A stretch of DNA of 29,262 nucleotides from a virus. The stretch covers positions 1 through 29,262 of IMG/VR virus record IMGVR_UViG_3300009183_000275; one strand, 5' to 3'. The position numbers were made by a program, and so were the translations under genes. Position 1 is the first letter of the stretch. The number at the start of each line of letters is the position of its first letter. Below are positions 2,710 through 23,442 of the stretch, one piece after another. The notes beneath the pieces are model-generated. The model was not told the DNA's origin, ran no database searches, and was given only the letters and a program-made list of their open reading frames with translations.

Positions 2710-3900
2710 ATGGCAAATGAATTTATAGCTCGCAATGGTATTATATCTTTAAGTAATATCCAAATAACAGGTAGCCTGAATGTTACAGGTGGTATCACAG
2801 GTTCTATATCTGGAATGGCTACTACAGCCTCTTACATCAATCTCGCACAAACAGCTTCTTATAATTTACAAGCCATAAGCGCTTCTGTGGCAGTTACTGC
2901 TAGCGCGGCTAGAAACCCCGTATCACAAGGAATTACAGGTGTATTAGGTACTCAAGGTCCGGCTGGAAACGTTGGAACGCAAGGAGGTAACGGTATAGTA
3001 GGTATTCAAGGTACAGGCGGTCCAACAGGAACTACAGCTGCACAAGGTAGAACAGGTACTCAAGGTCCTACTGGTACAACCGTACAGGGTACACAAGGTG
3101 CTTCTAGTAGTAACGGTGATCAAGGCACTTTAGGTGCACAAGGTAGAGTAGGTACAACTGGTCCAACTGGCACAGTAGCAGGACCAACCGGCCCTTCAGG
3201 TCCTACAGGTAGAACAGGCGGATCCGGTCCAACCGGTCCAGTAGGTTCTACCGGTCCAACAGGTCCTCCTGGCCCGCCAGGTCCTCCCGGCCCAACTGGT
3301 TCACCTGGTCCAACAGGCGGACCCGGTCCAACCGGTCCAACCGGTCCTTACTCTACAGCAGCATCTGGCAATTCCGATTATGTTATGAAGTTTACTTCAA
3401 GTACAACAGCAGGTAATAGCTTAATGCAAGATAACGGATCTGCATGTATTGTGTCTAATTACATTTATATGTATGTACCTAGCGGTACTGCCGGTAGAGT
3501 AAATATCACTAAAGTAATTACTGGTAACCCTAGTGCAATAGCTTGTTATTCTAACGGTTCTTATTGTGGCGGTATGGATTACAGTGATAGTGCTACTCAA
3601 TTTCTATCTTCTTCAGATTATAGGTTAAAATACGATTTAAAAGATTTCAACGGTTTATCTTTACTTTCGAGAATTAAAGTATACAACTTTGCTTGGAAGC
3701 TAGACGATACAAGATCTTATGGTGTAGTAGCTCACGAATTACAGGAAATTTTGCCCGATGCAGTTATTGGGGAAAAAGACCGCATGGGATCAGACGGAAA
3801 TATGAAACCTCAAGGGGTTGATTATAGTAAAATAGTTCCTATATTAGTTAAAGCTACACAGGAATTACAGGAAATAGTTACACAGTTAAAAAATAAATAG
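2710..3900 (+). CDS. Collagen-like tail fibre with S74 chaperone domain, copy 1
   Basis: This 396-aa fibre has three parts. The N-terminal [13 protein letters not shown] block (residues 1-13) is almost shared with the next two genes and is followed by GS and TASY repeats; it probably docks to the tail. Residues about 77-213 are a Gly-X-Y collagen-like rod rich in GPTGP and GPPGPP, expected to form a triple helix. From about 222 comes a globular or trimerising part, then an S74 chaperone domain starting at S302-D303 with K307 (the Ser/Lys+5 self-cleavage dyad), [18 protein letters not shown], and a C-terminal helix. It is the first of three tandem paralogues and sits behind a putative late promoter. 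The likely role is host adhesion. Confidence 0.88.
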
Positions 3901-3931
3901 AAGTATTAGAATATGGCAAATGAATTTGTAG
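3894..3931 (+). repeat. 38-bp direct repeat at fibre gene junctions, copy 1
   Basis: Bases 3894-3931 equal 5135-5172 exactly. Each copy spans the stop of one fibre gene, the 12-base spacer and the first codons (MANEFV) of the next. Recombination between them would delete or duplicate a whole fibre gene. Confidence 0.85.
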
Positions 3932-5141
3932 CCCGTAATGGTATTATATCTCAAAACACCCTGCAAGTAACAGGGAGTATGAGTATAAGCAGCGGCGGTA
4001 TTACTGGATCTTTTTCAGGTACCGTAGCAACAGCATCTTATGCGGCTTTAGCTCAAACTGCTTCTTATGCTGCAAACGTACTAAGCGCTTCCTTTTCTAC
4101 TACAGCTGGTTATGCTCTAACTCCAACCGTACAAGGTACACAAGGTACACAAGGTATAGTAGGTGTATTAGGACCTCAAGGTGCCGTTGGTACACAAGGT
4201 GGACAAGGTACGACAGGTAACGTAGGTATTCAAGGCATAGGAGGTACACAAGGTACACAAGGTCCAATAGGAACACAAGGTATTCTTAGTCCTCCCGGTA
4301 CAATAGGTATAATAGGCCCTAAAGGTCCGCAAGGTACAGGACCCGGTTCACAAGGAGCTCAAGGCGGTACAGGCGGTACAGGTCCGCAAGGTGCTACAGG
4401 CTCTCCTGGAGGTCAAGGTACTACAGGTACAACTGGTCCTACCGGTAGAACAGGTCCTGCAAGCGCTGTAACAGGCAGTCCCGGTCCGACAGGCGGTGCT
4501 GGAGGTACAGGTCCACAAGGCGGTACAGGGCCAGCCGGCTCACCCGGTCCTCCAGGTGGTACAGGTCCGAACGGTTTGAGCGGTACCACAGGCTATATTG
4601 CTAAGTATACCTCATCTACTACTGCAGGCAGTGGATATGCATATGACGATGGATCTCAGGTATTGATTGGTAATACTTCAGCTAGTACTAGTGCAGGAAG
4701 TATTTGGATGTATAGACCAGGCGGTGCGGGTTATGGTAGAATAAATGTAATAAAAACATCACCAGGAGGTAATGACGCTGTAGCAAACTATTCTAATGGT
4801 AGTTATGTAGGAGGAATAGTATATGCTGATACTACTTGTAGCTTTCCAACATCTTCTGACTATAGATTAAAGTATGACTTAAGAGACTTTAACGGTACGA
4901 CTTTACTTTCAAGAATTAAAGTATATGACTTTGCTTGGAAAGTAGACGATACAAGGTCTTATGGAGTTATTGCTCATGAATTACAAGAAGTTCTTTCTGA
5001 TGCAGTTTTCGGAGAAAAAGATCGCATGGGATCAAATGGAGAAATTAAATACAAGGGGTGGATTATAGTAAAATAGTTCCTGTATTAGTCAAAACTATTC
5101 AAGAGTTGCAAGAAAGAGTTATACAGTTAAATAGTAAATAG
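3913..5141 (+). pseudogene. Collagen-like tail fibre with S74 domain, copy 2, frameshifted near its 3' end
   Basis: The open frame runs 3913-5076 (387 aa): MANEFVARNGIIS docking block, collagen-like rod (residues about 73-222), and an S74 domain with S315, D316 and K320. After [13 protein letters not shown] the frame turns into YKGWIIVK and stops. In the other frame, from about 5052, the sequence reads [14 protein letters not shown] and continues to a stop at 5139-5141, matching the [14 protein letters not shown] end of copy 1. One base appears to be missing around 5047-5052. As read, the protein loses the last roughly 30 residues of the chaperone domain, including its terminal helix, which would probably hurt trimer formation. 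It may be a real mutation in a redundant fibre gene or a sequence error. Confidence 0.8.
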
Positions 5142-5172
5142 AAGTATTAGAATATGGCAAATGAATTTGTAG
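5135..5172 (+). repeat. 38-bp direct repeat at fibre gene junctions, copy 2
   Basis: This is the second copy of the repeat at 3894-3931, 1241 bases downstream and spanning the junction between fibre copies 2 and 3. The first mismatch after the repeat is C at 3932 versus T at 5173. Confidence 0.85.
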
Positions 5173-6377
5173 TTCGTAATGGTATTATTTCACAGAATAA
5201 TATTCAAGTAACAGGTAGCTTGAATGCTACAGGTGGCATAACCGGATCTCTTTCTGGTACTGCTGCTTCTGCATCTTATGTAATTCTCTCTCAAACAGCT
5301 TCTTATGTTGTAAATTCAGTTAGTGCATCTTATTCGTTTACCGCTAGCTTTACCAATAATCCAAGTCTAACAGGTGCACAGGGTACACAAGGTATTCAAG
5401 GCGGTACAGGAGCACAAAGTGCACAAGGAGGAATAGGACCTCAAGGTACAGGCGGACCTCAAGGTACGCAAGGTACTACGGGTACAAACGGAAATGTAGG
5501 TATTCAGGGCGGACAAGGAGTTACAGGTACACAAGGTACCCAAGGTACACAAGGAGCACAAGGTTCGCAAGGAGCTCCAGGTAGTCAAGGTCCAGGTGGA
5601 ACAACAGGTACACAAGGCGGATCAGGTTCACCCGGCCCTCCCGGCCCTCCCGGAAGTCAAGGTACACTCGGTCCGCAAGGAGGTCAAGGACCAACCGGTT
5701 CTCCCGGAGGTCAAGGCCCAACAGGCGGTGGCGGTCCAACAGGACCTCCAGGCGGACCTGGTCCAACAGGTCCAACAGGCGGACCTGGTCCAACTGGTCC
5801 AAACAATTTAGCTGGTTCTACTAATTATATTGTTAGATTTACAGGGAATCTAGCTGGAACTACCGGTGTTACATACGACCAAGGAACTTTAATACTAGTA
5901 GGCGCTACTACTGCCAGTACTAGTGTTGCAACTGTATGGCTTTATAGAACCGCTAACGGATCTGGAAGATTTAATATTATTAAGACTGCTGGCGGATCTT
6001 ATGACTCTTTTGCAAACTACTACAACTCTACTTATGTAGGAGGAATAACTTACAGTGATAGTGCTACAGGTTTTGCAACATCTTCAGATTATAGGTTAAA
6101 GCACGATTTAAAGAATTTTAACGGTTTATCCTTACTTTCAAGAATAAAAGTGTACAACTTTGCTTGGAAATTAGACGATACAAGATCATATGGTGTTATT
6201 GCTCATGAATTAAAAGAAGTTCTTCCTGATGCAGTGAATGGCGAAAAAGATCAGTATTGTGAAGTCGATCCTACTAACATTAAACCACAAGCAGTTGATT
6301 ACAGTAAGATAATTCCTATATTAATACAATCCCTTCAAGAATTAGAAGAAGCGATTACAGAATTAGAAAGTAAATAA
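5154..6377 (+). CDS. Collagen-like tail fibre with S74 chaperone domain, copy 3
   Basis: This 407-aa protein has the same architecture as copies 1 and 2: MANEFVVRNGIIS docking block, TASY-type repeats, a collagen-like Gly-X-Y rod (residues about 74-217) with more GTQ and GGQ triplets than copy 1, a short head, and an S74 domain opening at S311-D312 with K316. The terminal portion is intact (QAVDYSKIIPILIQSLQELEEAI). Compared with copy 1 it carries a changed loop containing QYCEVDPTN. The three rods differ in length and triplet order while the ends are conserved, as expected for adhesins that diversify by unequal recombination. The three genes probably share the transcript that begins at the 2656 box. 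Confidence 0.88.
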   Translation: MANEFVVRNGIISQNNIQVTGSLNATGGITGSLSGTAASASYVILSQTASYVVNSVSASYSFTASFTNNPSLTGAQGTQGIQGGTGAQSAQGGIGPQGTGGPQGTQGTTGTNGNVGIQGGQGVTGTQGTQGTQGAQGSQGAPGSQGPGGTTGTQGGSGSPGPPGPPGSQGTLGPQGGQGPTGSPGGQGPTGGGGPTGPPGGPGPTGPTGGPGPTGPNNLAGSTNYIVRFTGNLAGTTGVTYDQGTLILVGATTASTSVATVWLYRTANGSGRFNIIKTAGGSYDSFANYYNSTYVGGITYSDSATGFATSSDYRLKHDLKNFNGLSLLSRIKVYNFAWKLDDTRSYGVIAHELKEVLPDAVNGEKDQYCEVDPTNIKPQAVDYSKIIPILIQSLQELEEAITELESK

Positions 6378-10099: not shown

Positions 10100-11872
10100 A
10101 TGGCAGAAGCATTAATTAGTCCTGGCGTTTTCCTTAGAGAAAACGACCTTTCTCAAATAACAGCAGGTCCAATTACAGTAGGATCAGCTTTAATCGGCCC
10201 TACAGTAGTAGGAAAAGTAAATACTCCAACCCTTGTAACTTCATATTCTGAGTATAAGGCTAAGTACGGTACTACTTTCGTTTCAGGAGGTAATACACAA
10301 GAGTACTTAACTTCTCAAGCAGCTTATAATTACTTCCAACAAGGAGGTACTTCATTGTTAGTAACAAGAGTGGCTAGTGGTTCTTATACTGCAGCTACTT
10401 CTTCTATGGTTATTAATAGCCTAGGATCAGCTTCTTTCCAAATAAGTACTTTATCAGTAGGTACAGTAATGAATAACAGCCAAGGTGCTACTACAGCAAC
10501 TAACGGGTTATTACCTTCTGGTTCAGCTGACAACGTTAGATGGCAGATAACTCAAGCTGATACAGCTTCAGGATACTTTACCTTACTTGTTAGACAAGGA
10601 AACGACTATACACAAGGTCAGACAGTATTAGAGACTTGGACTAACCTATCTTTAGATCCAAACCAAAATAACTATATTGCATACGTAATTGGAGATCAAG
10701 ACCAAAACGTAGCTACTGATGAAAGCGGTGCTGCTTATTTAAACATAACAGGTAGCTACCCTAACAGATCTAACTACATTAGAATATCTAATGTATTCTT
10801 CCCAACACCAAACTACTTGAACCCACAAGGTCAAGCATATGCAGCTTACACAGCTTCAATTCCTTTAAACGGTAGTGGATCAGCAAACGGATCTTTCGGC
10901 AGCGCAACTGGTGCTTTATACGGAGGTCTATTGACAAATGGTAGTGCATCTGTTGCATTAAATTTATTCGAACAAATACCAACAGTAGCTGCATCTGCTG
11001 CTGCTAACAATATTCAAGGATTAGTTAACACTAATTACGATACAGCAATTAGCTTACTTGCAAATCAAGATGCTTATGTCTATAACGCAATTTACGCACC
11101 AGGTATTACTAATCAAAACGCTGCAAGTCAAGTATCTACTCTATTAAGTACGGTTCAAAATCGTGGTGATGCTATCGCAGTAGTAGATATGGTTGGATAC
11201 AATCAAGCAATTAGTACAGTAGCTACTGGAGCTCAATCTTACGATAATTCTTATGGTGCTACTTATTGGCCATGGGTTCAAGTAAGATCTACAGAGACTG
11301 GTAGATTAAATTTCGTACCAGCTTCTACTATCATACCAGGAGTATATGAGTACAATGATAAAGTATCTGCTGAGTGGTTTGCACCTGCAGGTCTTAACAG
11401 AGGAGGTTTACCAACAGTAATCCAACCTGAAAGAAGATTAACTGTAGCTCAAAGAAACACTCTATACAACGCTAAGGTGAACCCAATTGCAGTATTCCCA
11501 GGTCAAGGTACAGTAGTATACGGTCAAAAGACATTACAAGCTAGAGCTTCTGCTTTAGATAGAGTAAATGTAAGACGTTTACTAATTGCATTAAAAGGAT
11601 ACATTGGACAAATCGCAGCTACATTAGTATTTGAACAAAATACAGCCGTAACTAGAAACAAATTTATATCTCAAGTTAATCCTTACTTAGAATATGTACA
11701 ACAAAGACAAGGTTTGTATGCATTCAGAGTAGTGATGGATGAGACTAACAACACACCAGATGTAATTGATAGAAACTTACTTGTAGGTGCTATTTACTTA
11801 CAGCCAACAAGAACTGCTGAATTTATCCAATTAGACTTTAACATCTTACCAACAGGTGTAACTTTTGGATAA
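10100..11872 (+). CDS. gp18: Contractile tail sheath protein (gp18 family)
   Basis: This 590-aa protein has the classic sheath opening ISPGVFLRENDLSQI (residues about 6-20), then VGSALIGPTVVGKVNTPTLV and SEYKAKYG, the conserved N-terminal strand pair that links neighbouring sheath subunits. The C-terminal part has RLTVAQRNTLYNAKVNPIAV, GQKTLQ, DRVNVRRLLIALKGYI and the closing beta strand region LNTLPTG-type ending in FNILPTGVTFG, all typical of gp18/Pfam phage sheath. The variable middle (about 100-330) is the exposed protrusion domain. It polymerises around the tube and contracts on infection. Length is close to T4 gp18 (659 aa). ATG 10100 fits the family N-terminus. Confidence 0.95.
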   Translation: MAEALISPGVFLRENDLSQITAGPITVGSALIGPTVVGKVNTPTLVTSYSEYKAKYGTTFVSGGNTQEYLTSQAAYNYFQQGGTSLLVTRVASGSYTAATSSMVINSLGSASFQISTLSVGTVMNNSQGATTATNGLLPSGSADNVRWQITQADTASGYFTLLVRQGNDYTQGQTVLETWTNLSLDPNQNNYIAYVIGDQDQNVATDESGAAYLNITGSYPNRSNYIRISNVFFPTPNYLNPQGQAYAAYTASIPLNGSGSANGSFGSATGALYGGLLTNGSASVALNLFEQIPTVAASAAANNIQGLVNTNYDTAISLLANQDAYVYNAIYAPGITNQNAASQVSTLLSTVQNRGDAIAVVDMVGYNQAISTVATGAQSYDNSYGATYWPWVQVRSTETGRLNFVPASTIIPGVYEYNDKVSAEWFAPAGLNRGGLPTVIQPERRLTVAQRNTLYNAKVNPIAVFPGQGTVVYGQKTLQARASALDRVNVRRLLIALKGYIGQIAATLVFEQNTAVTRNKFISQVNPYLEYVQQRQGLYAFRVVMDETNNTPDVIDRNLLVGAIYLQPTRTAEFIQLDFNILPTGVTFG

Positions 11873-12655: not shown

Positions 12656-13141
12656 ATGCCAGTATTAGACCCAAATGAAATAATGTTTACAGCGTTTGAA
12701 CCAACTGTTCAAAACCGCTTTATAATGTACATAGACGGTATTCCTTCTTTTATGATTAAAAGTGCAACTGCACCAAACATCAACTTAGGAGAAGTTAAAA
12801 TCGACCATATCAACGTTTACCGTAAGATCAAAGGTAAGGCTGAGTGGCAAGATATGACATTAAATTTATACAATCCAATCTCTCCTTCAGGACAACAAGC
12901 CGTAATGGAGTGGATTCGTTTATCACATGAGTCTGTTACAGGACGTGATGGATATTCTGACTTCTACAAGAAAGACTTAAACTTGTCTATCTTAGGACCA
13001 GTAGGTGACGTAGTGAGTGAGTGGATTATCAAAGGAGCTTTTATTAAGACATCAAACTTTGGTTCTTATGATTGGTCTAACCAAGATGCTATCACAATTG
13101 AATTAGGTATAGGAATGGATTATTGTATCCTTAACTACTAA
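12656..13141 (+). CDS. gp19: Tail tube protein (gp19 family)
   Basis: This 161-aa protein matches T4 gp19 in length (163 aa) and pattern: NRFIMYIDGIPSFMIKSATAP (residues about 20-40), the conserved first strands of the tube fold; then VYRKIKGKAEWQDMTLNLYNPI; GQQAVMEWIRLSHE; a helix with GYSDFYKKDL; and a final strand set with SEWIIKGAFIKTSNFGSYDWS. It forms the hexameric rings inside the sheath. All four arginines use CGN codons, unlike the AGA that dominates most genes here, consistent with very high expression. A strong terminator follows 18 bases after the stop, closing the sheath/tube unit. Confidence 0.95.
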   Translation: MPVLDPNEIMFTAFEPTVQNRFIMYIDGIPSFMIKSATAPNINLGEVKIDHINVYRKIKGKAEWQDMTLNLYNPISPSGQQAVMEWIRLSHESVTGRDGYSDFYKKDLNLSILGPVGDVVSEWIIKGAFIKTSNFGSYDWSNQDAITIELGIGMDYCILNY

Positions 13142-13245: not shown

Positions 13246-13503
13246 ATGACACAAGAAACCGTATTGATATACTTTATAGGCTTTATTGCAGCTATTTTCG
13301 TATTGAGAATGCTTAGATTTACTATTACCCTTCTTTTTAGTATGGTAGAAGATACTCTAAGAGAGTCTTTTCCGAAATACGATAGTACTCTAAGAGACTT
13401 CTTTCTAAAGATAGATTTTGCAGTGAATAAACTGCGAATTTTAGGTATTCGCTGGCATTTTATTGCTGCTTTCTTGTATGTAACCTATGCTGTAGCTCAC
13501 TAA
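13246..13503 (+). CDS. Small two-helix membrane protein, moron-like
   Basis: This 85-aa protein has an N-terminal hydrophobic segment (residues about 6-20, VLIYFIGFIAAIFVL, bounded by R21 and R24), a second hydrophobic patch (25-34), a charged amphipathic middle, and a C-terminal segment (about 69-83, HFIAAFLYVTYAVA). It has its own host-type promoter and a terminator just upstream, so it is expressed apart from the tail genes around it, as morons are. T4 Imm, which blocks DNA entry by superinfecting phage, is also about 83 aa with two membrane segments; that is a likeness in size and topology, not a homology I can show. The leader ends in AATAAGAGTTATG, like other genes with this promoter class. 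Confidence 0.72.
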   Translation: MTQETVLIYFIGFIAAIFVLRMLRFTITLLFSMVEDTLRESFPKYDSTLRDFFLKIDFAVNKLRILGIRWHFIAAFLYVTYAVAH

Positions 13504-13550: not shown

Positions 13551-14306
13551 ATGGACAATGAAAAAATGAAGCTCCCTACGGAGAACGTTGAATTACCTTC
13601 AAAAGGACTTATTTACCCTACAGAAAACCCTTTATCTTCAGGGGTAATTGAAATGAAGTATATGACTGCTAAAGAAGAAGATATTCTTTCCAATCAGAAC
13701 TTCATTCGTTCAGGAGTAGTATTCGATAAGCTATTAAGATCTCTTATAGTATCTAAAATCGATTACGATGATTTATGTATTGGAGATAAAAATGCAATTT
13801 TGATTGCAGCACGTATTCTAGGGTACGGTAAGGACTATCAGATTAAGTATCCTCACCCAAAAACAGGTGAAGATGAAGTAATTACATTGGATTTAGCTGA
13901 GATTAAGAATAAAGATATAGATTATAGCTTATTACAGAATAAGAACGAATTTACCTTTGTTTTACCTCAATCTAAGAACGAATTAGTATTTAAAATATTG
14001 ACTCATAGAGATGAAAGAGTAATAGAAGAAGAATTAAAAGGACTTAAGAAAGTTAACCTATCAGGCGAAGTTACAACTAGACTAAAGCAAGCAATTCTTG
14101 CAGTAAATGGTGATAGAGATAAGAAAGCCGTTAGAGAGTTTGTAGAAAACTACTTACTTGCTTCAGATGCAAGAGCTTTGAGAGAATACATGAAAAAGGT
14201 AAATCCAGATTTAGATATGACCTTTACGTTCATTGGATCTGATGGCTACACAGAGGAGGGTGTAGATTTACCGCTAGGGGTTTCCTTTTTTTACCCTAAC
14301 GCCTGA
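13551..14306 (+). CDS. T4 gp26/gp51-type baseplate or tail assembly chaperone, short form
   Basis: This 251-aa protein matches the T4 baseplate protein family (Pfam T4_baseplate, gp26/gp51 type): ENVELPSKGLIYP near residue 11-23, GVIEMKYMTAKEEDIL, SGVVFDKLLRSLI, a GDKNAILIAARILGYGKDY segment, and the tail VDLPLGVSFFYPNA. In T4 these proteins assist baseplate hub assembly. The gene lies between tube and tape measure, where many phages encode the tail assembly chaperone (lambda G/GT). The stop at 14304-14306 comes 12 bases after a run of seven Ts (14286-14292), and the +1 frame continues for 91 more codons. It is thus the likely G-like form, with a longer GT-like product made by frameshifting. 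Confidence 0.82.
   Translation: MDNEKMKLPTENVELPSKGLIYPTENPLSSGVIEMKYMTAKEEDILSNQNFIRSGVVFDKLLRSLIVSKIDYDDLCIGDKNAILIAARILGYGKDYQIKYPHPKTGEDEVITLDLAEIKNKDIDYSLLQNKNEFTFVLPQSKNELVFKILTHRDERVIEEELKGLKKVNLSGEVTTRLKQAILAVNGDRDKKAVREFVENYLLASDARALREYMKKVNPDLDMTFTFIGSDGYTEEGVDLPLGVSFFYPNA
14286..14292 (+). other. Candidate programmed frameshift site (seven Ts)
   Basis: Frame 0 reads TTT TTT TAC. Slipping +1 or -2 on the T-run keeps perfect Phe-tRNA pairing and enters the frame that stays open to 14566. The -1 frame meets TAA at 14297, so -1 shifting is excluded. A sequencing overcall of one T would give the same picture. Confidence 0.6.
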
Positions 14307-14568
14307 GTATAGAGCCTCAGTTTTTACTCAAATCCACGAAATAATATTCTTTGGTAAAGGAGGCTATGATTGGGAGACTATATACAATATGCCTATATGG
14401 CTTCGTAAGTTTACTTTCAATCAAATCAATGAATACTACAAGAAAGAACAGGAAGAATACGATAAAGTACAGGGAAAGAGTCAGATAGTGACAGCTAACA
14501 AGCCTCTTGCAAAACCCGGCATTCCAAATCAACAACCTACATATACGAGCAAAGTGTCTAAAAAATAG
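14293..14568 (+). CDS. Downstream T-like extension of tail assembly chaperone (reached only by frameshift)
   Basis: The +1 frame has 91 sense codons from 14293 to the TAG at 14566-14568. It reads TLTPEYRASVFTQIHEII, then FGKGGYDWETIYNMPIWLRK, KFTFNQINEYYKKEQEEYDK, and a Pro/Lys-rich end. The protein-like region lies upstream of the only ATG (14389), and this frame has a TAG at 14275, so there is no ordinary start that would include it. Reading through the T-run gives a 338-aa fusion. The string DWETIYNMPIWLRKF followed by a NEYYKKE helix resembles small proteins found at this place in other phages, which in lambda-like systems contact the tape measure. It immediately precedes the tape measure gene. 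Confidence 0.7.
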   Translation, partial: TLTPEYRASVFTQIHEIIFFGKGGYDWETIYNMPIWLRKFTFNQINEYYKKEQEEYDKVQGKSQIVTANKPLAKPGIPNQQPTYTSKVSKK

Positions 14569-14620: not shown

Positions 14621-14647
14621 TACATGAAGCTATTTAGTAAATTTTAT

Positions 14648-16834
14648 ATGGCAGATCCTCCAAATGGAGGCGGGTCCGGTCCTAGCGATAGAGATATTAG
14701 AAACGCTGAAGAGTTGAACAGACAATATTCTGAAATGCAAAGGACTCTCAGAGGCATAGGACCTGAGCTATTGAACGAGATTAATGAACAGATGGAGTTT
14801 CTAGATGAAACTGTTCAAGACATTGTAAAAAGTATCGGAAAAGATTTAAATAGAGAAATTCAAAGTAGTATTAGACTTACTAAAATACTATCAGATAGCG
14901 AAAAGGGAATAGGAAAGAGCCTAACTACTCAAGTAAAGGTACAGGAGCAAATTAAAGTGGTAGAAGAGAGGAGAAAGTCAATAATGAGTCTTATGGAAGA
15001 ATTAGTAGGCGAAAATATAGTAATGACAACAGCGATGGTAAGGCTACAAGAGAGTCTACTAGAAACATTAAATAACCAAGACGAAGCATTACAGAAGCAA
15101 TTAATTAAACTTACAAAATTTGAAAAGTTACTAGGAGGTATTGGCGGGGTATTAAAAGGTTTATCTAAAATCCCGATCGTAGGCCAGTTTATTAAAGCAG
15201 ATGAAGTACTTGCTAAAATGAAAAAAACCGCAGAAGAAGGCGGCAGTAAGATGAAAGTATTTTGGGAAGGTACAGATACTTTATTTAAAGGTATAGGGAT
15301 GAGCTTAATAGGTTTAATAGTACCTGCTTTAAAATTTGTAGTTGATGCAGTAATACAGTTTGATCAAAAAGCATTTGATATTGCTAAAAATTTAGGTACT
15401 TCTGCAGATGAAGGAGAGCGCTTACAGAAAAATTTCCAACAAATAGCTATTAATTCTGGTAATGCAGCGTTAATGAGTAAAGACGTAGCAAAAAGTTTTA
15501 CTGAGATTTCAAATACCCTAGGTTTTTTAGTTCCTTCATCTGGAGCATTTGCTGAATCTGCTGCACTTATACAAAAGAGACTTGGTGCATCGGCAGAAGA
15601 TATGGCCGTATTAGCTAGACAGTCTGCATTAAACGGACAAACCTTAGAACAAACTTATGCTACGTTAAGTGCTAGTAGGGTAATAGAAGGGGTAAGAAAT
15701 AAATTAGCTCTAACAAATAAACAAATATTAGACGGCATTGCTAAAACAAGTGCTGCTATTGTTATTAATTTTAAAGGCAGTACGGAAGCTCTTGCTAATG
15801 CAGTTATTAGAGCTGCTAAATTAGGTACTACATTAAATGATGTTAATAAACAAGCGGAGTCTTTAATAGATTTTGAATCAAGTATACAAAAAGAGTTTGA
15901 AGCACAAATTCTAACTGGTAGAGATATTAACTTAACAAAAGCTAGAGAACTTGCTTTATTGGGTGATACTCAAGGCTTGATGGAAGAATTAAATCGTCAA
16001 CAAGTCACTTACGATTCTTTTACTAAGCAGAATGTAATTCAAAGAAAAGCAGAAGCAGACGCAATAGGTCTAAGTGTTGAAGAGTTGTCAAAGAAGTTAC
16101 TTGCACAAAAACAAGCTAATGCCTTAGGTGCTGAAGAGGGACAATCTTTACAAGAAAGATATAACGATTTAATGAAAACTGCCGATGGACAGAAGCGAAT
16201 TAAAGAAGAGTTAACCGCACAAGAACAAGCTGACTTGAGAAGAGCTTCAATGCAAGACAGATTTCAAGCCGCTGTTGAGAAGTTGAAAGATACTTTAGGA
16301 AGTATGTTAGGAGGAGATGGACCTGTAGGTAAGATGGTTAATGCTTTTGCTTCTTTCGTAGGCGATACTAAGAAAATGACAGCTTTAGGAAACACTTTAA
16401 AGAGTATTTTTGAATCTATCAGTAAGACTATAGAGCGCTTCCCGCAGATTTTAAGTGCTTCAGTAAGTATAATGAAGGTACTAGTATCTCTATCTATAGC
16501 CAGAGCTGTAGCTAGTATAGTAGCTTCTTTAAGTACAGTTCCTATAGTAGGAGCAGCAGCAGGAGCATACGCAGGCTACAAAGCCTATAACTGGCTAGAT
16601 GGTTTAGCTAAAGGAATAGGAGGAGGAGCACCAGGTATAAGCATGCCAACTGAAAGCGGAATGACTCAACCTCCTACCGGCTATAACACGCAATCGCAAT
16701 CTGAAAATGAAGGAAAAAATAACACAAAAACACCGGTAGTAAATCTAAACGCAAATATACAAGTTGGAACAGAGGGATGGGGAAAACAAACTTTAATTGC
16801 TCTACAACAACATCACGGAACAACACTTAGATAA
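14648..16834 (+). CDS. Tail tape measure protein
   Basis: About 728 aa from the ATG at 14648 (MADPPNGGGSG); the frame is also open from ATG 14624, eight codons upstream, but that codon nearly abuts a putative promoter box. The protein is a long helical, coiled-coil-rich chain (about 20-160), with hydrophobic helices (around 215-240, and about 615-660 with SLSIARAVASIVASLSTVPI then a Gly/Ala-rich stretch), and the segment EAQILTGRDINLTKARELAL, which is common in myovirus tape measures. In this family the protein sets tail length inside the tube and may enter the cell. At about 1.5 angstrom per residue this fits a tail near 110 nm. It follows the chaperone gene, the usual order. Confidence 0.85.
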   Translation: MADPPNGGGSGPSDRDIRNAEELNRQYSEMQRTLRGIGPELLNEINEQMEFLDETVQDIVKSIGKDLNREIQSSIRLTKILSDSEKGIGKSLTTQVKVQEQIKVVEERRKSIMSLMEELVGENIVMTTAMVRLQESLLETLNNQDEALQKQLIKLTKFEKLLGGIGGVLKGLSKIPIVGQFIKADEVLAKMKKTAEEGGSKMKVFWEGTDTLFKGIGMSLIGLIVPALKFVVDAVIQFDQKAFDIAKNLGTSADEGERLQKNFQQIAINSGNAALMSKDVAKSFTEISNTLGFLVPSSGAFAESAALIQKRLGASAEDMAVLARQSALNGQTLEQTYATLSASRVIEGVRNKLALTNKQILDGIAKTSAAIVINFKGSTEALANAVIRAAKLGTTLNDVNKQAESLIDFESSIQKEFEAQILTGRDINLTKARELALLGDTQGLMEELNRQQVTYDSFTKQNVIQRKAEADAIGLSVEELSKKLLAQKQANALGAEEGQSLQERYNDLMKTADGQKRIKEELTAQEQADLRRASMQDRFQAAVEKLKDTLGSMLGGDGPVGKMVNAFASFVGDTKKMTALGNTLKSIFESISKTIERFPQILSASVSIMKVLVSLSIARAVASIVASLSTVPIVGAAAGAYAGYKAYNWLDGLAKGIGGGAPGISMPTESGMTQPPTGYNTQSQSENEGKNNTKTPVVNLNANIQVGTEGWGKQTLIALQQHHGTTLR

Positions 16835-17069: not shown

Positions 17070-18865
17070 ATGCCATTAATTAATTTCAAGACTAATTTTA
17101 CTAATTTAAGATTTGGCATGGATCAACCGGGAGGTGGAGATAGTGGTCAACCATTCATCCAATCCCCTATTGAGACTGCTAATACCCCTACGGAATTTAA
17201 AGATTTTTACAATCTTAATAGAACTAGCTTAGACTTTCCAATAAGAGGGGGAGCGATAAGCTCTCTAGTAGATGGAGGATATACAACACAAGCTGCTATT
17301 ATAGATTTAGAGCGTATTAAGAAGTTTTTTAAATCCGCACCACAAGGTGAGACTTTTATTAATAAGCAGAAAGGATTACAATTAACCAATCCGATAACAC
17401 AAGTTCCTAACTCGCTACAGTTTCTAGGGCTTTCTTTAGGTAATGCAGTTATACCTACAACACAGGTCTATAATCCAGCAAATACTTTAGCTCAAGTAGG
17501 AGTACAGGGAAATGGAACACATTTTAATAGACACGGAGTTAGTCCGAATGCATATGAGTCTGTTTATCAGACATATCAGTATATTCAGGCGCACCTCAAA
17601 ACAATACAGAAGTAACTAATAGATTATCTATCCTACGTGCTTTAAAATTAGTAGGAACTACAAACTTCCTTATAAATTCAGATTTAACTACCGGACTTAG
17701 TCTTGATCCATTACTTGTTGAGAGATTAGGTATTTCAACAATCCAAAATCAATTATTTAACTATCCAGGAGGTCCTGGTTCAAATTACGGTATTGGCTTT
17801 ACAAGAATCTTTAGAGCCACTGATACTAATATTACTAAGTTAAGTCAAACTAGACCTGATCCTCGCTTTACTGCTAATGGAAGTATAGCACAGCCTTATT
17901 CTGCTATTGCTTTTACCTATCAACAGCTAGCTCAACAAACAGGCTCTTATGCAGCAGGTAAAACACCTCTAACAACAAACATACAAGACTTTAGAAATCA
18001 ACTACCAGCCGGAGTATCTGGTACTGCTAGATCAGATTACTCTTTGTACAACATAGCTAATAAAAATAACAATTCCACTAAGAGAGGTTTAGGTATTGGT
18101 AACCCCGGCTCTCCTATTCAACAAAGTAACGTATTTAATGTTCGAAGAGTTACAGATATTGGTAGTGATTTAGTAAACTTAAATCCTTTCTTTTATTATA
18201 CACAAGACGGAGCAGGAGAGCAAACTCCATGGACAGCAGGAGGGCAAGATACCAAAGATATTATTAAGTTTGCTTTTGAATGTATAGATAATAATCAACC
18301 CTCACAAGCTATTGGACTTGTATTTAGAGCTTTCTTTGATGGTCAAATTAGTGATTCAAATACAGCAGAATATAATACATTTAAATACCTAGGAAGAGGT
18401 GAAACTTTTAGAACTTATCAAGGATTTGATAGAACAATTGGATTTACATTTAAGGTATTTTGTCAAAGTAGACAAGAGATGCAACCTCTATACACTAAAT
18501 TAAATAACTTAGTATCCCAAGTATACCCAGACTATTCTCCTACCTCTAATTTAATGAGAGGAAATGTTGTTAAATTGACAATTGGCGATTATATTTATAG
18601 AATGCCAGGATTTTTAGAGAATGTAAATATAACTATTGATAATAGTAATACCCCTTGGGAAATTCAATTAAAAGGAGCATTAGAAACAGACGTAGCAGAA
18701 TTACCTCATATGGTTACTGTTGCATGTACATTTAAACCAATTATGGATATTTTACCGAGAAAAGCTACATTCGGTGATCTAAATGTACCTCTTATTGCAA
18801 ACGGAGGCTTAATGTCTCAAGGAGCATTAACTCAAGTTCCAACAGTTCAAAATAATCCTGTTTAA
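17070..18865 (+). pseudogene. Baseplate protein (tube-initiator-like), one gene split by a frameshift
   Basis: Two open frames make one gene. Frame A runs 17070-17615 (MPLINFKTNF, then INKQKGLQLTNPITQVPNSL). Frame B is open 17558-18865 and carries NRLSILRALKLVGTTNFLIN, later the LGRGETFRTYQGFDRTIGFT block, and GDYIYRMPGFLENVNITID near the end. Frame B has no ATG near its start, only a TTG at 18044 well inside conserved-looking sequence, so bases 17616-18043 are coding and not a gap. The switch lies between 17558 and 17613 and equals one missing base (or a -1 shift). The full product would be about 598 aa. The C-terminal part looks like tail tube-fold baseplate proteins such as gp48/gp54, but this is tentative. 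Confidence 0.75.
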
Positions 18866-18875
18866 TAAAACATTT

Positions 18876-19181
18876 ATGCAATCTAGATACCAAAACATAC
18901 CAGTCACAAAGCTAAATGTTACAAGTAGTATGTATTACCAGACTAATATCTATCCTGAAATACAGCCAACCAATACAGACTACTATGTAATTGCGACTGC
19001 AGACGATAGATTAGATCTATTAGCATATGATTTCTATCAAGATTCAAATCTTTGGTGGATTATTGCTTCTGCAAACGCATTACCAGGTGATTCTATGTAC
19101 CCTCCCGTAGGTATGCAGTTAAGAATCCCAACAGACTTACAAACAGTAGTAAACTCCTATAATTCAGAGAATAATGGCTGA
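18876..19181 (+). CDS. gp53-like baseplate wedge protein with LysM-like fold
   Basis: This 101-aa protein contains the tract DDRLDLLAYDFYQDSNLWWI (residues about 43-62) followed by IASANALPGDSMYPPVGMQL and IPTDLQ. This is the pattern of LysM-like modules in phage baseplates, where the chain folds onto the baseplate core and does not necessarily bind peptidoglycan; T4 gp53 has such a module. Length is shorter than T4 gp53 (196 aa). Its stop overlaps the hub gene start by 8 bases, indicating coupled translation. The LysM-like call is good; the gp53 equivalence is an inference from fold and location. Confidence 0.7.
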   Translation: MQSRYQNIPVTKLNVTSSMYYQTNIYPEIQPTNTDYYVIATADDRLDLLAYDFYQDSNLWWIIASANALPGDSMYPPVGMQLRIPTDLQTVVNSYNSENNG

Positions 19182-22100
19182 GATGTTATCTAACGTCATT
19201 GGTGCTCCATTTTCAGAGTATGTTTTGACACAATTAAGCTTAAGAGCAACGCATAATAGTTCTCTCACTAGAACTAATGACGAAGTAATGTTTATAGCCA
19301 ATAAAACGGCCTGGGTAAGATTAACTTCCTCTGTACAGATTAATAAAAATCAAGAAGTTCTAAATGTAGGAGCAGGAACTCTACCTGGCTTTAAACCCGT
19401 GAGTATACCAAACCCTTTGCTAAATCAATACTATAAAAGCCTATTAGGAACTCCCGCTATTGGATATAATGATTCAGACTCTTTAAGAAAAAATTGGATA
19501 CTCGAAGCAGGTACTTCTATTTCAACTGGCGATGGTATTGATTTAAGATCTGGAATAGGACCAGAAGGTGCTTATGGATTAGGAGGAACTGAAGAATTAG
19601 GTTATAGACCTATGCCCGGTTTAACTTCGGTGGAAATAGATACAGTAGGTACTTTAGGTTCATTAAGACAAGCCAATATTCAATTTAAGGTTTGGAATAT
19701 AAATCAACTTAATGTTATGGAAGCCCTATACTTTAGATTAGGCTACTCTATGATACTTGAGTGGGGACATACACAATACTATCAAAACAAAGGAGTAGGA
19801 AAGCAAGGCACTTTCGTAACAAACACATACGGTCTTGATCTTTTTTCAAGTAAAATGAGAAAGGAAGAGGTCCAACAGAAAATATCTAAACTTACTTACG
19901 ACTCTAGCGGTAACTACCAAGGTATGCTTGGTATAGTTAGTAACTTCAACTGGTCAATGAATCAAGAAGGGGGTTACGATTGTACTGTTAAGTTAATAGG
20001 ATTGGGAGCAGTAATTGATTCATTAAGAATTAACTCTTCTTATAAAATGCCAGACTCTTTACAAGAAATCTACGACGCACAGCAGGCTATGCAAAAAAGA
20101 GAGCAGCAAGAAGCAGAAGAATTAAAGAAAAAGTTAGACCGTCAAAAAATAGGGCTAACCTCTGTACCTGTAACGTTTCCTAAAAACATCGACGAAGTAT
20201 ATACTGTATTATTTGCAACGGATTTAGGAGAAGAAGCAAAAAAGACTTCTGCTCAAGAATTTTTTAGAACAATATCTTACTACTCCGATTATCAATCTGA
20301 TCCAACACTTTCTAACTATATTCCTGATTATTATTATAAAGCAGTAAAAGGAGGAAAAGATGCAGTTCCAAAACAAAGAGAGGAAATTGATAAAGTAGCA
20401 GGATTATTTATAACAACTAAAGACGCAAAACTTAACTTTAAAGCAACAATTCCAGCTAACGTTACAGTTAATTATCCGCAACCTATTAAACTAGATACTT
20501 CCTACTTTAATAAGCGATACCAAGAGTATACTACTGCCTACCCTAGCCCTAATCAGAATAACTTTATTCTTACAACTAAAACTTTAGGCTTTAATAATGT
20601 TTTACTTGAAACATTATTTCCAAGTAGCCAGGTTAGAGACTCTATATTAGAAAATGTCATAATTATAGAACCTGAATCTAAAAGTATTATTGATGTTTCT
20701 ACTGCTTATTTAGCTACACTTGAAAACAAATACAGAGATCGAGCTTATATAAGAGAGGTAGTAACTGTAGTACTACCTTATATAGGAAGAATACCAGGCG
20801 TTATTGAAGGTACTACTATAGATAAGACTTTTTTTGTAGCTATTAAGTTTATTCCGAGTACTGCTTCAGTTATAGCAGCAGACCTATTTTCGTTTTTTAA
20901 TAACTGGTTAAACAACAAATCTGGTATAGCAAATGTAATAGATATACAAACCGATATTGTAAATCAGAATAAGGATACTTACTATAAGAATTTATACATT
21001 ACTGCAAATATACCTACAACCACACCAAAAGACCCTACTATACAAATTATTACTAACGATACTAGTTACATCGCTGCTACTCTTTCACGACCTGAAGAAC
21101 AAACAATTACACCTCCTGTACCAGAAATTGCAAATGAGGGTGATACAGCCGGAGACATCAATAGTACAACTTCCGGTCAAGTAGATCCAGGAGAGCGATT
21201 TAATTCTGCTTTACATATAATGCTTAATGTAGTTAAAAGCCAACTTAAAACAGAAGCTAGTAAACGTACGGGTGTTACTTCTGCATCACTACTACCAACT
21301 ACAAAGTTATTATATAATGACGGTATATTAAATGGAGTACTAGCTGATAAAGCTGGTAGAATAGAATCTGTAACACCGCTTAATGATGTAAGGCAATTTG
21401 ACTTACTACAATATGCTTTAAAAGGATTTAATAGTAATTTAATGTCCGACCCTACTGTTTATAACGAGGTAGAAAGCGTAAAGTTTGATAAGCTATGTAC
21501 GGGATATTTAATTCCTTATGTACAGAAAGACGCAAAAGGACTCCCGAACTATCCAACTTACATAAAGTTCGGTTACTTATTAGCTTTTTTAAATAATATG
21601 TGCCTTATTTACGATTCAACTCAAGATACAGATAAACACCCCTACGTCTATCTTGACTTTAATCCAGAGACAAATTTATGCCTAAGCAATCCTCAACACC
21701 TTTCTGTTGATCCCTATACGTGTATGATTCCCTTTCAAGGCACTGATGACGATTATATAAAAATATTTCCAGAAGGTATATCAAGAGAATCTCTTAGTAA
21801 GGAATTTAATAACGCACCTTTAACAGATACACTAAATACAGTATCTAAAAGTATGGAAAGTTTTAAAGGTAACACTCTATACCAAGGTAAGACAATGGAA
21901 ATTTTACTTAATATAGATTTCTTACTTGAAACTTTAAAACAATATACCTCTAATGATAGAGAGCATGCAATTAACCTTAAAGGTTTTTTAGATGCTATTG
22001 TAACCGGTGTAAATAAAGCAACAGGTAATATTAATTTATTTAGAGTTGCTTATAGAGATGATTCCAATACTATAATTATTAAAGATGATCAGTTTGTACC

Positions 22101-23442
22101 TTCTTTACAAGGAGAAAGTACATCTATGGAAAGTGTTAACGGTAATCAAGTTATATATAACGACACCCTAGGCCCTATAGTACCAAGATACGGACAACTT
22201 CCTGTATTTGGTGTAAAGAGCTTAGTAAGAGAAATGCAATTTCAAACCGACTTATCAACAGCAATATCAAATCAAATCGCTATTTCAGCTCAAGCAAGTA
22301 CAGGGTCTGTAAATTCAACCGACCACTCCCCTTTCAGTTATTTAAATGTAAATTATTCTGATGCTTATAAGCCTTTTGTAAGAAATGTAGCAGCCGCTAA
22401 AATAACCACAAAGCCAGATGAAGATAAATTAGCAATAAACGATCTTAAACAAGCAGGTCAGTTTAATCAACATTTACGAAGTATTTATAGTATTAATACC
22501 GATAAAACATTATCGACAGGTAAAATTGATATGGCTACTAACTATTACATTAACAGCATGTCTAACTTAAAAGCTACTGACGGTATAACTTCGGCAGCTC
22601 CCTTCATACCTGCAAATTTAAGTTTAACTTTAGACGGTATTGGCGGTGTGATTATGGGACAGGCTTTTACTATTGACCAAGATAGACTTCCTTTATCTCT
22701 TAGAAGTGTAGACGACCCTACCCATACTAAAGTAGGTTTTATTGTAGTAGGATTAACTCATACTGTTCAAAATAATCAATGGCTTACTAAAATTAGAGGA
22801 CAAATGATTAAGCTTAGAGATACAACAAATTACGCTACAAGATTAACTCCTATTACTTCTTCACAAAAGACAAAAGCAAATACGGATAATTCAAGAATTA
22901 CTATAGCAAACACTCCTTGGAGTGCAGCCTTTATTAGCTATGTAATGCAACAGGCCGGAGTTACATCTTTCCCTCTTAACAGTAACCATTTAGCTTATGC
23001 ACAAAAACTTAGAGCTACTTACCCGCCAAATTCTACAGATAAAAACGGATTTAAAGTTTTAGACACTACTACCACTAAAATAGAAGTGGGAGATTTAATA
23101 GTAAAAGGAAGAAGCGGTAATAACGTATCTTTTAATACTAAAGAGTGGTCAGGGAATGGTCATGGAGATATTATAGTAGGTATTAACAGCAATACTGCTT
23201 TATTAGTGGGCGGTAATGAAGGCGATACTGTACAACAAACATCAGTCGGACTCGTTGACGGTAAGTTAGGCAAATCTGATTTCTTTGTAATACTAAGACC
23301 GCCAAAAGACTCAGTGAATAAAATAGTAAGTATTACTAAAGCTGAATATAAGAATTGGAGTACTGGGAAGTGGAAAGAAGATACTGCTGCTGCCCGTCAA
23401 AGTTTAACAGCTTATTATAAAACTGTTGGAATAAACGTATAA
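19174..23442 (+). CDS. Very large baseplate hub protein with C-terminal DUF2272/CHAP-like domain
   Basis: This 1422-aa protein is the largest in the window. The N-terminal third has hub-like segments: GYRPMPGLTSVEIDTVGTLG, VWNINQLNVMEALYFRLGYS, ILEWGHTQYYQNKG, and a FNWSMNQEGGYDCTVKLIGL strand typical of central baseplate/hub proteins. The middle is long and diverse with a Lys/Glu helix at about 300-325. The C-terminus (from about 1240) has PWSAAFISYVMQQAGV (W1249, S1250), H1272 in SNHLAYAQ, and GHGDIIVG (H1330), the layout of DUF2272/CHAP-type cell-wall peptidase folds. The position where CHAP/NlpC enzymes have the Cys nucleophile carries Ser here, as I recall for DUF2272. It likely joins hub and peptidoglycan-degrading functions that are separate proteins in T4 (gp27, gp5). 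Confidence 0.78.
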   Translation: MAEMLSNVIGAPFSEYVLTQLSLRATHNSSLTRTNDEVMFIANKTAWVRLTSSVQINKNQEVLNVGAGTLPGFKPVSIPNPLLNQYYKSLLGTPAIGYNDSDSLRKNWILEAGTSISTGDGIDLRSGIGPEGAYGLGGTEELGYRPMPGLTSVEIDTVGTLGSLRQANIQFKVWNINQLNVMEALYFRLGYSMILEWGHTQYYQNKGVGKQGTFVTNTYGLDLFSSKMRKEEVQQKISKLTYDSSGNYQGMLGIVSNFNWSMNQEGGYDCTVKLIGLGAVIDSLRINSSYKMPDSLQEIYDAQQAMQKREQQEAEELKKKLDRQKIGLTSVPVTFPKNIDEVYTVLFATDLGEEAKKTSAQEFFRTISYYSDYQSDPTLSNYIPDYYYKAVKGGKDAVPKQREEIDKVAGLFITTKDAKLNFKATIPANVTVNYPQPIKLDTSYFNKRYQEYTTAYPSPNQNNFILTTKTLGFNNVLLETLFPSSQVRDSILENVIIIEPESKSIIDVSTAYLATLENKYRDRAYIREVVTVVLPYIGRIPGVIEGTTIDKTFFVAIKFIPSTASVIAADLFSFFNNWLNNKSGIANVIDIQTDIVNQNKDTYYKNLYITANIPTTTPKDPTIQIITNDTSYIAATLSRPEEQTITPPVPEIANEGDTAGDINSTTSGQVDPGERFNSALHIMLNVVKSQLKTEASKRTGVTSASLLPTTKLLYNDGILNGVLADKAGRIESVTPLNDVRQFDLLQYALKGFNSNLMSDPTVYNEVESVKFDKLCTGYLIPYVQKDAKGLPNYPTYIKFGYLLAFLNNMCLIYDSTQDTDKHPYVYLDFNPETNLCLSNPQHLSVDPYTCMIPFQGTDDDYIKIFPEGISRESLSKEFNNAPLTDTLNTVSKSMESFKGNTLYQGKTMEILLNIDFLLETLKQYTSNDREHAINLKGFLDAIVTGVNKATGNINLFRVAYRDDSNTIIIKDDQFVPSLQGESTSMESVNGNQVIYNDTLGPIVPRYGQLPVFGVKSLVREMQFQTDLSTAISNQIAISAQASTGSVNSTDHSPFSYLNVNYSDAYKPFVRNVAAAKITTKPDEDKLAINDLKQAGQFNQHLRSIYSINTDKTLSTGKIDMATNYYINSMSNLKATDGITSAAPFIPANLSLTLDGIGGVIMGQAFTIDQDRLPLSLRSVDDPTHTKVGFIVVGLTHTVQNNQWLTKIRGQMIKLRDTTNYATRLTPITSSQKTKANTDNSRITIANTPWSAAFISYVMQQAGVTSFPLNSNHLAYAQKLRATYPPNSTDKNGFKVLDTTTTKIEVGDLIVKGRSGNNVSFNTKEWSGNGHGDIIVGINSNTALLVGGNEGDTVQQTSVGLVDGKLGKSDFFVILRPPKDSVNKIVSITKAEYKNWSTGKWKEDTAAARQSLTAYYKTVGINV

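Follow-up and report, generated by a model that had tools for sequence, protein, structure and literature searches.

A probable +1 programmed frameshift in a tail assembly chaperone gene of a T4-like contractile-tailed phage

We analysed positions 1 to 29,262 of IMG/VR virus record IMGVR_UViG_3300009183_000275 (29,262 nucleotides, hereafter the window), in which a gene at 13551–14306, here called gene A, is joined at a run of seven Ts to an extension in another reading frame. Based on sequence comparison, we propose with a probability of about 0.87 that a +1 programmed frameshift at this run yields both forms of a tail assembly chaperone in a T4-like phage with a contractile tail. An earlier note, made from the sequence alone, had described a 91-codon extension without a start codon, joined to gene A at the T run in the +1 frame, and a −1 frame closed at 14297. 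Both descriptions agree with the anatomy found in the window, where the +1 frame runs without a stop from 14278 until the one at 14568, and TAA at 14297–14299 closes the −1 frame.

13551–14306, + strand: gene A, short product (TAC-N, gp26-like), 251 amino acids, C-terminus ...PLGVSFFYPNA*; PF12322, PHROG 150, AlphaFold2
14286–14292, + strand: slip site TTT TTT T, zero-frame reading TCC TTT TTT TAC
14304–14306, + strand: zero-frame stop TGA, terminates the short product; stop 12–24 nucleotides past the slip codon in 99/99 distinct loci
14293–14568, + strand: +1-frame extension (TAC-C, gp51-tail-like), 91 codons (14293–14565) plus stop TAG; conservation, ratio of non-synonymous to synonymous divergence (dN/dS), hhalign

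Most ribosomes would reach the gene A stop and give the short form, comparable to T4 gp26. A minority would slip +1 at a site of the form 5′-UUU YUU U (Y being U or C), where the P-site tRNA-Phe would exchange UUU for the overlapping UUY, so that one base is skipped; the 91 further codons that these ribosomes translate would give the long form (TAC-NC), a counterpart of T4 gp51. If lambda gpG/gpGT is a guide, the tape measure protein would be coated by both forms, and the C-terminal extension, predicted to be helical, would recruit tube subunits. The occurrence and efficiency of this shift are predictions for this phage, and the protein function is putative.

Gene A matches Pfam PF12322 (T4_baseplate; 7.8e-6, 26.2 bits against a cut-off of 24.5) and PHROG 150 ('baseplate hub', 3.6e-12). 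The short form and the extension were folded separately. The AlphaFold2 model of the short form has a predicted local distance difference test (pLDDT) score of 91.4, and its fold matches in BFVD are T4-like baseplate hub proteins, including that of SP-15. Foldseek against the PDB returned nothing significant for the short form (E-values above 1), the highest probabilities belonging to the HK97 tail assembly chaperone 2ob9 (E 2.2, probability 0.28) and the phage-related Bacillus subtilis protein YqbN (3klu; probability 0.11, E above 1). The extension is predicted to be helical with low confidence, and a fold search with this low-confidence model gave no significant match.

Slip site and out-of-frame extension

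Scans with each part separately recovered 29 and 80 viral contigs. In total, 99 distinct sequences from metagenomes and isolates carry the +1 extension, and the 94 close ones were used for the slip-codon counts; these sequences share kinship, and locus counts are not counts of independent events. Named relatives are Flavobacterium immuto, Microcystis Mel-JY01, Bacillus SP-15, Listeria LIS04, Streptococcus GXN1 and Rhodothermus RM378, all of which have the +1 extension, as does LR756508. The extension lies in the +1 frame at every locus where both parts were detected, with no fused genes, and is also carried by two loci (L023 and L028) in which the scan detected only the first part. The same geometry holds in five more distant named or uncultured phages. 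The earlier note had asked whether an alignment of relatives would show conservation of the short end as well as of the out-of-frame extension, and relatives conserve both. That note had also named two observations that would overturn the frameshift, raw reads with six Ts (one continuous gene) or relatives with an independent start codon for the extension, and neither is borne out by the relatives: none has one continuous gene, and no start is conserved, with 54 of the 99 distinct loci lacking any ATG, GTG or TTG in the +1 frame upstream of the slip or within five codons after it. In the window such a codon first appears deep within the extension, as the ATG of ...IYNMPIW.

Among the 94 close loci the first slip codon is TTT without exception (94/94), and the second is TTT (82) or CTT (12) and never TTC, a codon that makes up 164 of about 819 Phe codons (about 20%) elsewhere in gene A. 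Synonymous divergence in the slip-codon columns is zero, compared with a mean of 0.45 for the gene. The slip sites of distant relatives read TTT TTT CAC, TTT TTT AGT, TTC TTT CGT, TTT TTT TGG and TTT CTA TTC. With these distant relatives included, the sequences point to a common rule of TTT followed by a pyrimidine, which would let tRNA-Phe move +1 to UUU or UUC; at the T7 site, Phe-tRNA re-pairs UUU to UUU after a +1 move.

Close pairs give a dN/dS of about 0.05–0.1 for the extension, with dN of 0.05–0.06 and dS of about 1.0–1.1 in the pairs L001/L002 and L001/L031. These values indicate strong purifying selection on the extension and, together with the constant +1 frame in relatives, speak clearly against a chance arrangement.

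Upstream hairpin with a Shine-Dalgarno-like loop

14246–14265, + strand: RNA hairpin CTACAC-AGAGGAGG-GTGTAG, stem 14246–14251 with 14260–14265; covariation; ends 20 nucleotides before the T run
14253–14259, + strand: Shine-Dalgarno-like GAGGAGG in the hairpin loop, 26 nucleotides before the T run; motif count across loci

A GGAGG-type motif precedes the T run by about 26–31 nucleotides in 86 of the 94 loci, compared with 1.7% of control windows, and RNAalifold, run without prior expectation, placed a stem of 6 base pairs around it. In a subset of 35 sequences, 92.4% of stem cells are paired (shuffled 69.3%, slid controls 24–51%) and 51 cells hold double changes, against 18.7 in shuffled data, where none of 500 shuffles was as high. 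Since this set was a subset, pairing was recounted in all 52 sequences less than 85% identical, giving 85.6% against 64.4 ± 1.7% permuted and 26–46% slid. The mean folding-energy z-score is −1.42 relative to synonymous shuffles, with control windows at −0.20. SP-15 has a similar hairpin whose loop contains GGAGAGG.

The hairpin with its Shine-Dalgarno-like loop probably tunes the frameshift. It could refold behind the ribosome, or its loop could pair with 16S ribosomal RNA there, and forward movement would thereby be favoured. On 70S ribosomes, stimulation of a +1 shift by an upstream hairpin has been reported (PMC6321510), and bypassing in T4 gene 60 is driven by a 5′ stem-loop (PMC5009743). 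Two other roles for this segment were considered and rejected: as the ribosome-binding site of an internal open reading frame, GAGGAGG has no properly spaced start codon and is followed in the window by a stop in the +1 frame, and pairing of the loop with the slip region is not conserved. Rfam gave only a sub-threshold match, which was disregarded.

Direction of the shift and alternative explanations

Several observations weigh against a +1 shift aided by the hairpin in a gp26/gp51-type gene. The T7 site itself permits −2 re-pairing just as well. In the divergent loci L022, L024, L027, L029, L088 and L112 the hairpin is weak or missing, and it was not found in GXN1, LIS04 or RM378; we therefore regard it as a feature of a sub-clade that is not essential clade-wide. 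It is also missing from most phages with a −1 arrangement. The known spacing for Shine-Dalgarno-stimulated +1 shifting is 3 nucleotides (PMC5009743), whereas here the hairpin lies 20 and GAGGAGG 26 nucleotides from the run. Finally, the similarity of the extension to the T4 gp51 tail is weak (E 0.014, from the profile of the −1 homologues).

The alternative that survives best, albeit an improbable one, is a −2 shift of the ribosome at this run, of the sort described for phage Mu (PMC5009743), in which the second Phe-tRNA would re-pair two bases back at TTT TTT T and one extra Phe would be incorporated. The earlier note had allowed either slip at the T7 run. At the sites of GXN1 (GAA TTC TTT CGT) and LR756508 (AAC TTT CTA TTC), only +1 gives clean re-pairing, UUU to UUC being perfect, and no acceptable −2 re-pairing exists; the +1 direction is therefore favoured, and would be the one used in this phage, with −2 disfavoured even though T7 itself could accommodate it. 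The usual helper of backward shifts, a downstream structure, is not conserved: a search for a downstream stimulator found no conserved helix except a trivial pairing of 3 base pairs, and z-scores were weak (mean about −0.6). The combination typical of a classic −1 frameshift, X XXY YYZ with a downstream structure, is likewise not found here, where the −1 frame is closed at 14297.

Transcriptional slippage, in which RNA polymerase adds or drops a U on the T7 run and a mixed mRNA pool is translated, appears very unlikely. The run is a homopolymer and reaches 8–9 Ts in L022, L024, L025, L027, L080 and L088, but a C interrupts it (TTTCTTT) in 12 of the 94 loci, immuto among them, and it is also broken in LR756508 and GXN1, with the +1 geometry maintained. 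The TTT-CTT variants therefore make transcript slippage, and equally a homopolymer error, less likely.

We give still less credence to the extension being a separate gene with an internal start, reached by re-initiation or from a non-standard start codon. Some annotations treat it as such, that of Mel-JY01 (WWT39326) among them, and 45 of the 99 loci have an ATG, GTG or TTG in the +1 frame before or close to the junction; the other 54, the window included, have none, a stop closes the +1 frame a few codons before the slip and downstream of GAGGAGG, and the synonymous conservation of the slip codons is absolute. A sequencing or assembly error hiding a continuous gene with six or eight Ts is barely credible: homopolymers are error-prone and the same contig has a second apparent frame break near 17.6 kb, but the same frame relation recurs in 99 distinct sequences, drawn from isolate genomes and many metagenomes, none of them fused, and TTTCTTT variants occur.

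Homologous loci, known systems and neighbouring genes

Gene A homologues in jumbo phages (121Q, RaK2, GAP32, Munch, PA5oct and Atu_ph07) and in cyanophages have a −1-frame extension, and at the same Phe-Phe their sequence is T TTT TTC or a comparable run of Ts. Comparison of the +1 and −1 extension sets with hhalign (probability 97.7, E 2e-12) identifies the two as the same domain. The loci thus share a homologous gene and extension joined at one conserved Phe-Phe, and differ in frame, in the heptamer T TTT TTC and in the GGAGG-type loop motif, which is absent from nearly all jumbo phage and cyanophage loci. Small cyanophage open reading frames named 'baseplate hub assembly catalyst' in records, a T4 gp51-type name, would bridge the extension to gp51; single-sequence hhalign of the fusion against T4 gp51 or gp26 was not significant. 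The C-terminus of T4 gp26 (...KEFFELL*) resembles that of the short form and gp51 continues with an extension-like segment, which fits the published two-gene solution of T4.

In the gene A tree, a −1 clade (14 rows) is separated from a clade that holds every one of the 20 +1 rows plus a single −1 row, LR756511, with support of 99/99. LR756511 nests within the +1 clade, and the tree calls for a minimum of two polarity changes. Around 4690–4771 this sequence (L118) combines T TTT TTC with a zero-frame tail that is longer and ends in an overlapping TAATG, and is possibly an intermediate or a re-initiation case. A tentative scenario, which we consider rather doubtful, is that an ancient frameshift of tail chaperones, placed at a fixed Phe-Phe, changed polarity in a T4-like clade: jumbo phages and cyanophages shift by −1, the present clade by +1 apart from one nested −1 member. 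Some of the +1 phages would also have gained a stimulator of a new type, a hairpin that presents a Shine-Dalgarno loop about 20–26 nucleotides before the slip site.

Vladimirov, Gautam and Davidson (2022, Virology 566:9–15) reportedly described T4-like tail assembly chaperones of the gp26/gp51 type, some of them frameshifted. Papers citing that study (PMC12846349, PMC10885494) credit it with identifying the T4-like chaperone genes, and the T4-like poly-T signals are described in this secondary literature as −1. T4 is reported to encode its two forms separately, in genes 26 and 51, while frameshifting is reported for other groups. The earlier note's suggestion that the gp26/gp51 family is linked to frameshifted tail chaperones is accordingly correct but not new, having been published in 2022 according to those citing papers. 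The +1 polarity of a large clade and the covarying upstream hairpin may be new. The present locus shares with T4-like gp26/gp51 chaperones the PF12322/PHROG 150 assignment and the position before the tape measure gene, would also share the short and long forms and a poly-T frameshift at the end of the short form, and differs from the separate genes of T4 and from the reported −1 poly-T signals in its +1 extension.

According to a 2016 review (PMC5009743), long-tailed phages other than T4 conserve G-T frameshifting, with shifts of −1, −2 and +1 all represented. As in lambda gpG/gpGT and siphophage chaperones, frameshifted short and long isoforms would be encoded directly before the tape measure gene; unlike here, lambda uses a −1 shift, no sequence similarity to it was found, and the resemblance in fold to the HK97 chaperone is no more than suggestive. 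In the +1 shift of influenza PA-X (UCC UUU CGU), tRNA-Phe similarly moves from UUU to UUC (or UUU), and GXN1 shares UUU CGU with it, although gene and ribosome are unrelated and no stimulator is evident for PA-X (PMC5009743). Bacterial release factor 2 likewise combines a +1 P-site slip with an upstream Shine-Dalgarno-like element, and the CTT T variant is its slip codon; here the motif lies in a hairpin loop 26 nucleotides away instead of 3, and the A site holds TGG or TAC and not a UGA stop.

Bacterial and phage +1 signals are poorly catalogued, and a recent tool paper states that no general forward-shift motif is known (PMC10885494). This family offers about 100 natural versions of one +1 site, in which variants define a rule (UUU then a pyrimidine), together with a covarying upstream element and −1 homologues at the same place, so that what sets the direction of frameshifting becomes directly testable. 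It would also correct the annotation of tail chaperones now recorded as 'baseplate hub subunit' and 'hypothetical protein'.

10100–11872, + strand: tail sheath protein, upstream context; PHROG 23, 3.6e-72
12656–13141, + strand: tail tube protein (gp19-like), upstream neighbour; PHROG 4542, 1.8e-22; Pfam PF06841, 0.0012, below cut-off
14624–16834, + strand: tape measure protein, 736 amino acids, downstream neighbour; 31% identity over 360 amino acids to the immuto tape measure protein, E 1.5e-35

The order of tube, chaperone locus and tape measure is the same in immuto, SP-15 and LIS04. The placement of the locus between tube and tape measure in the earlier note holds, with the correction that a small unknown open reading frame (13246–13503) separates the tube gene from gene A. 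Further downstream, 17070–18865 is split over two frames with the break near 17.6 kb; relatives have one open reading frame of 628–849 amino acids without stops, and the immuto counterpart is the single protein immuto26A_236. This break is probably an indel error or marks a decayed copy, with relatives holding intact ones. The baseplate region (19174–23442) encodes a 1422-amino-acid protein with a C-terminal match to DUF2272 (PF10030, 1.1e-16), possibly a cell-wall enzyme domain. At 2710–6377, three consecutive collagen-like or tail-fibre-type genes have similar PHROG matches and may represent repeated or alternative fibre genes.
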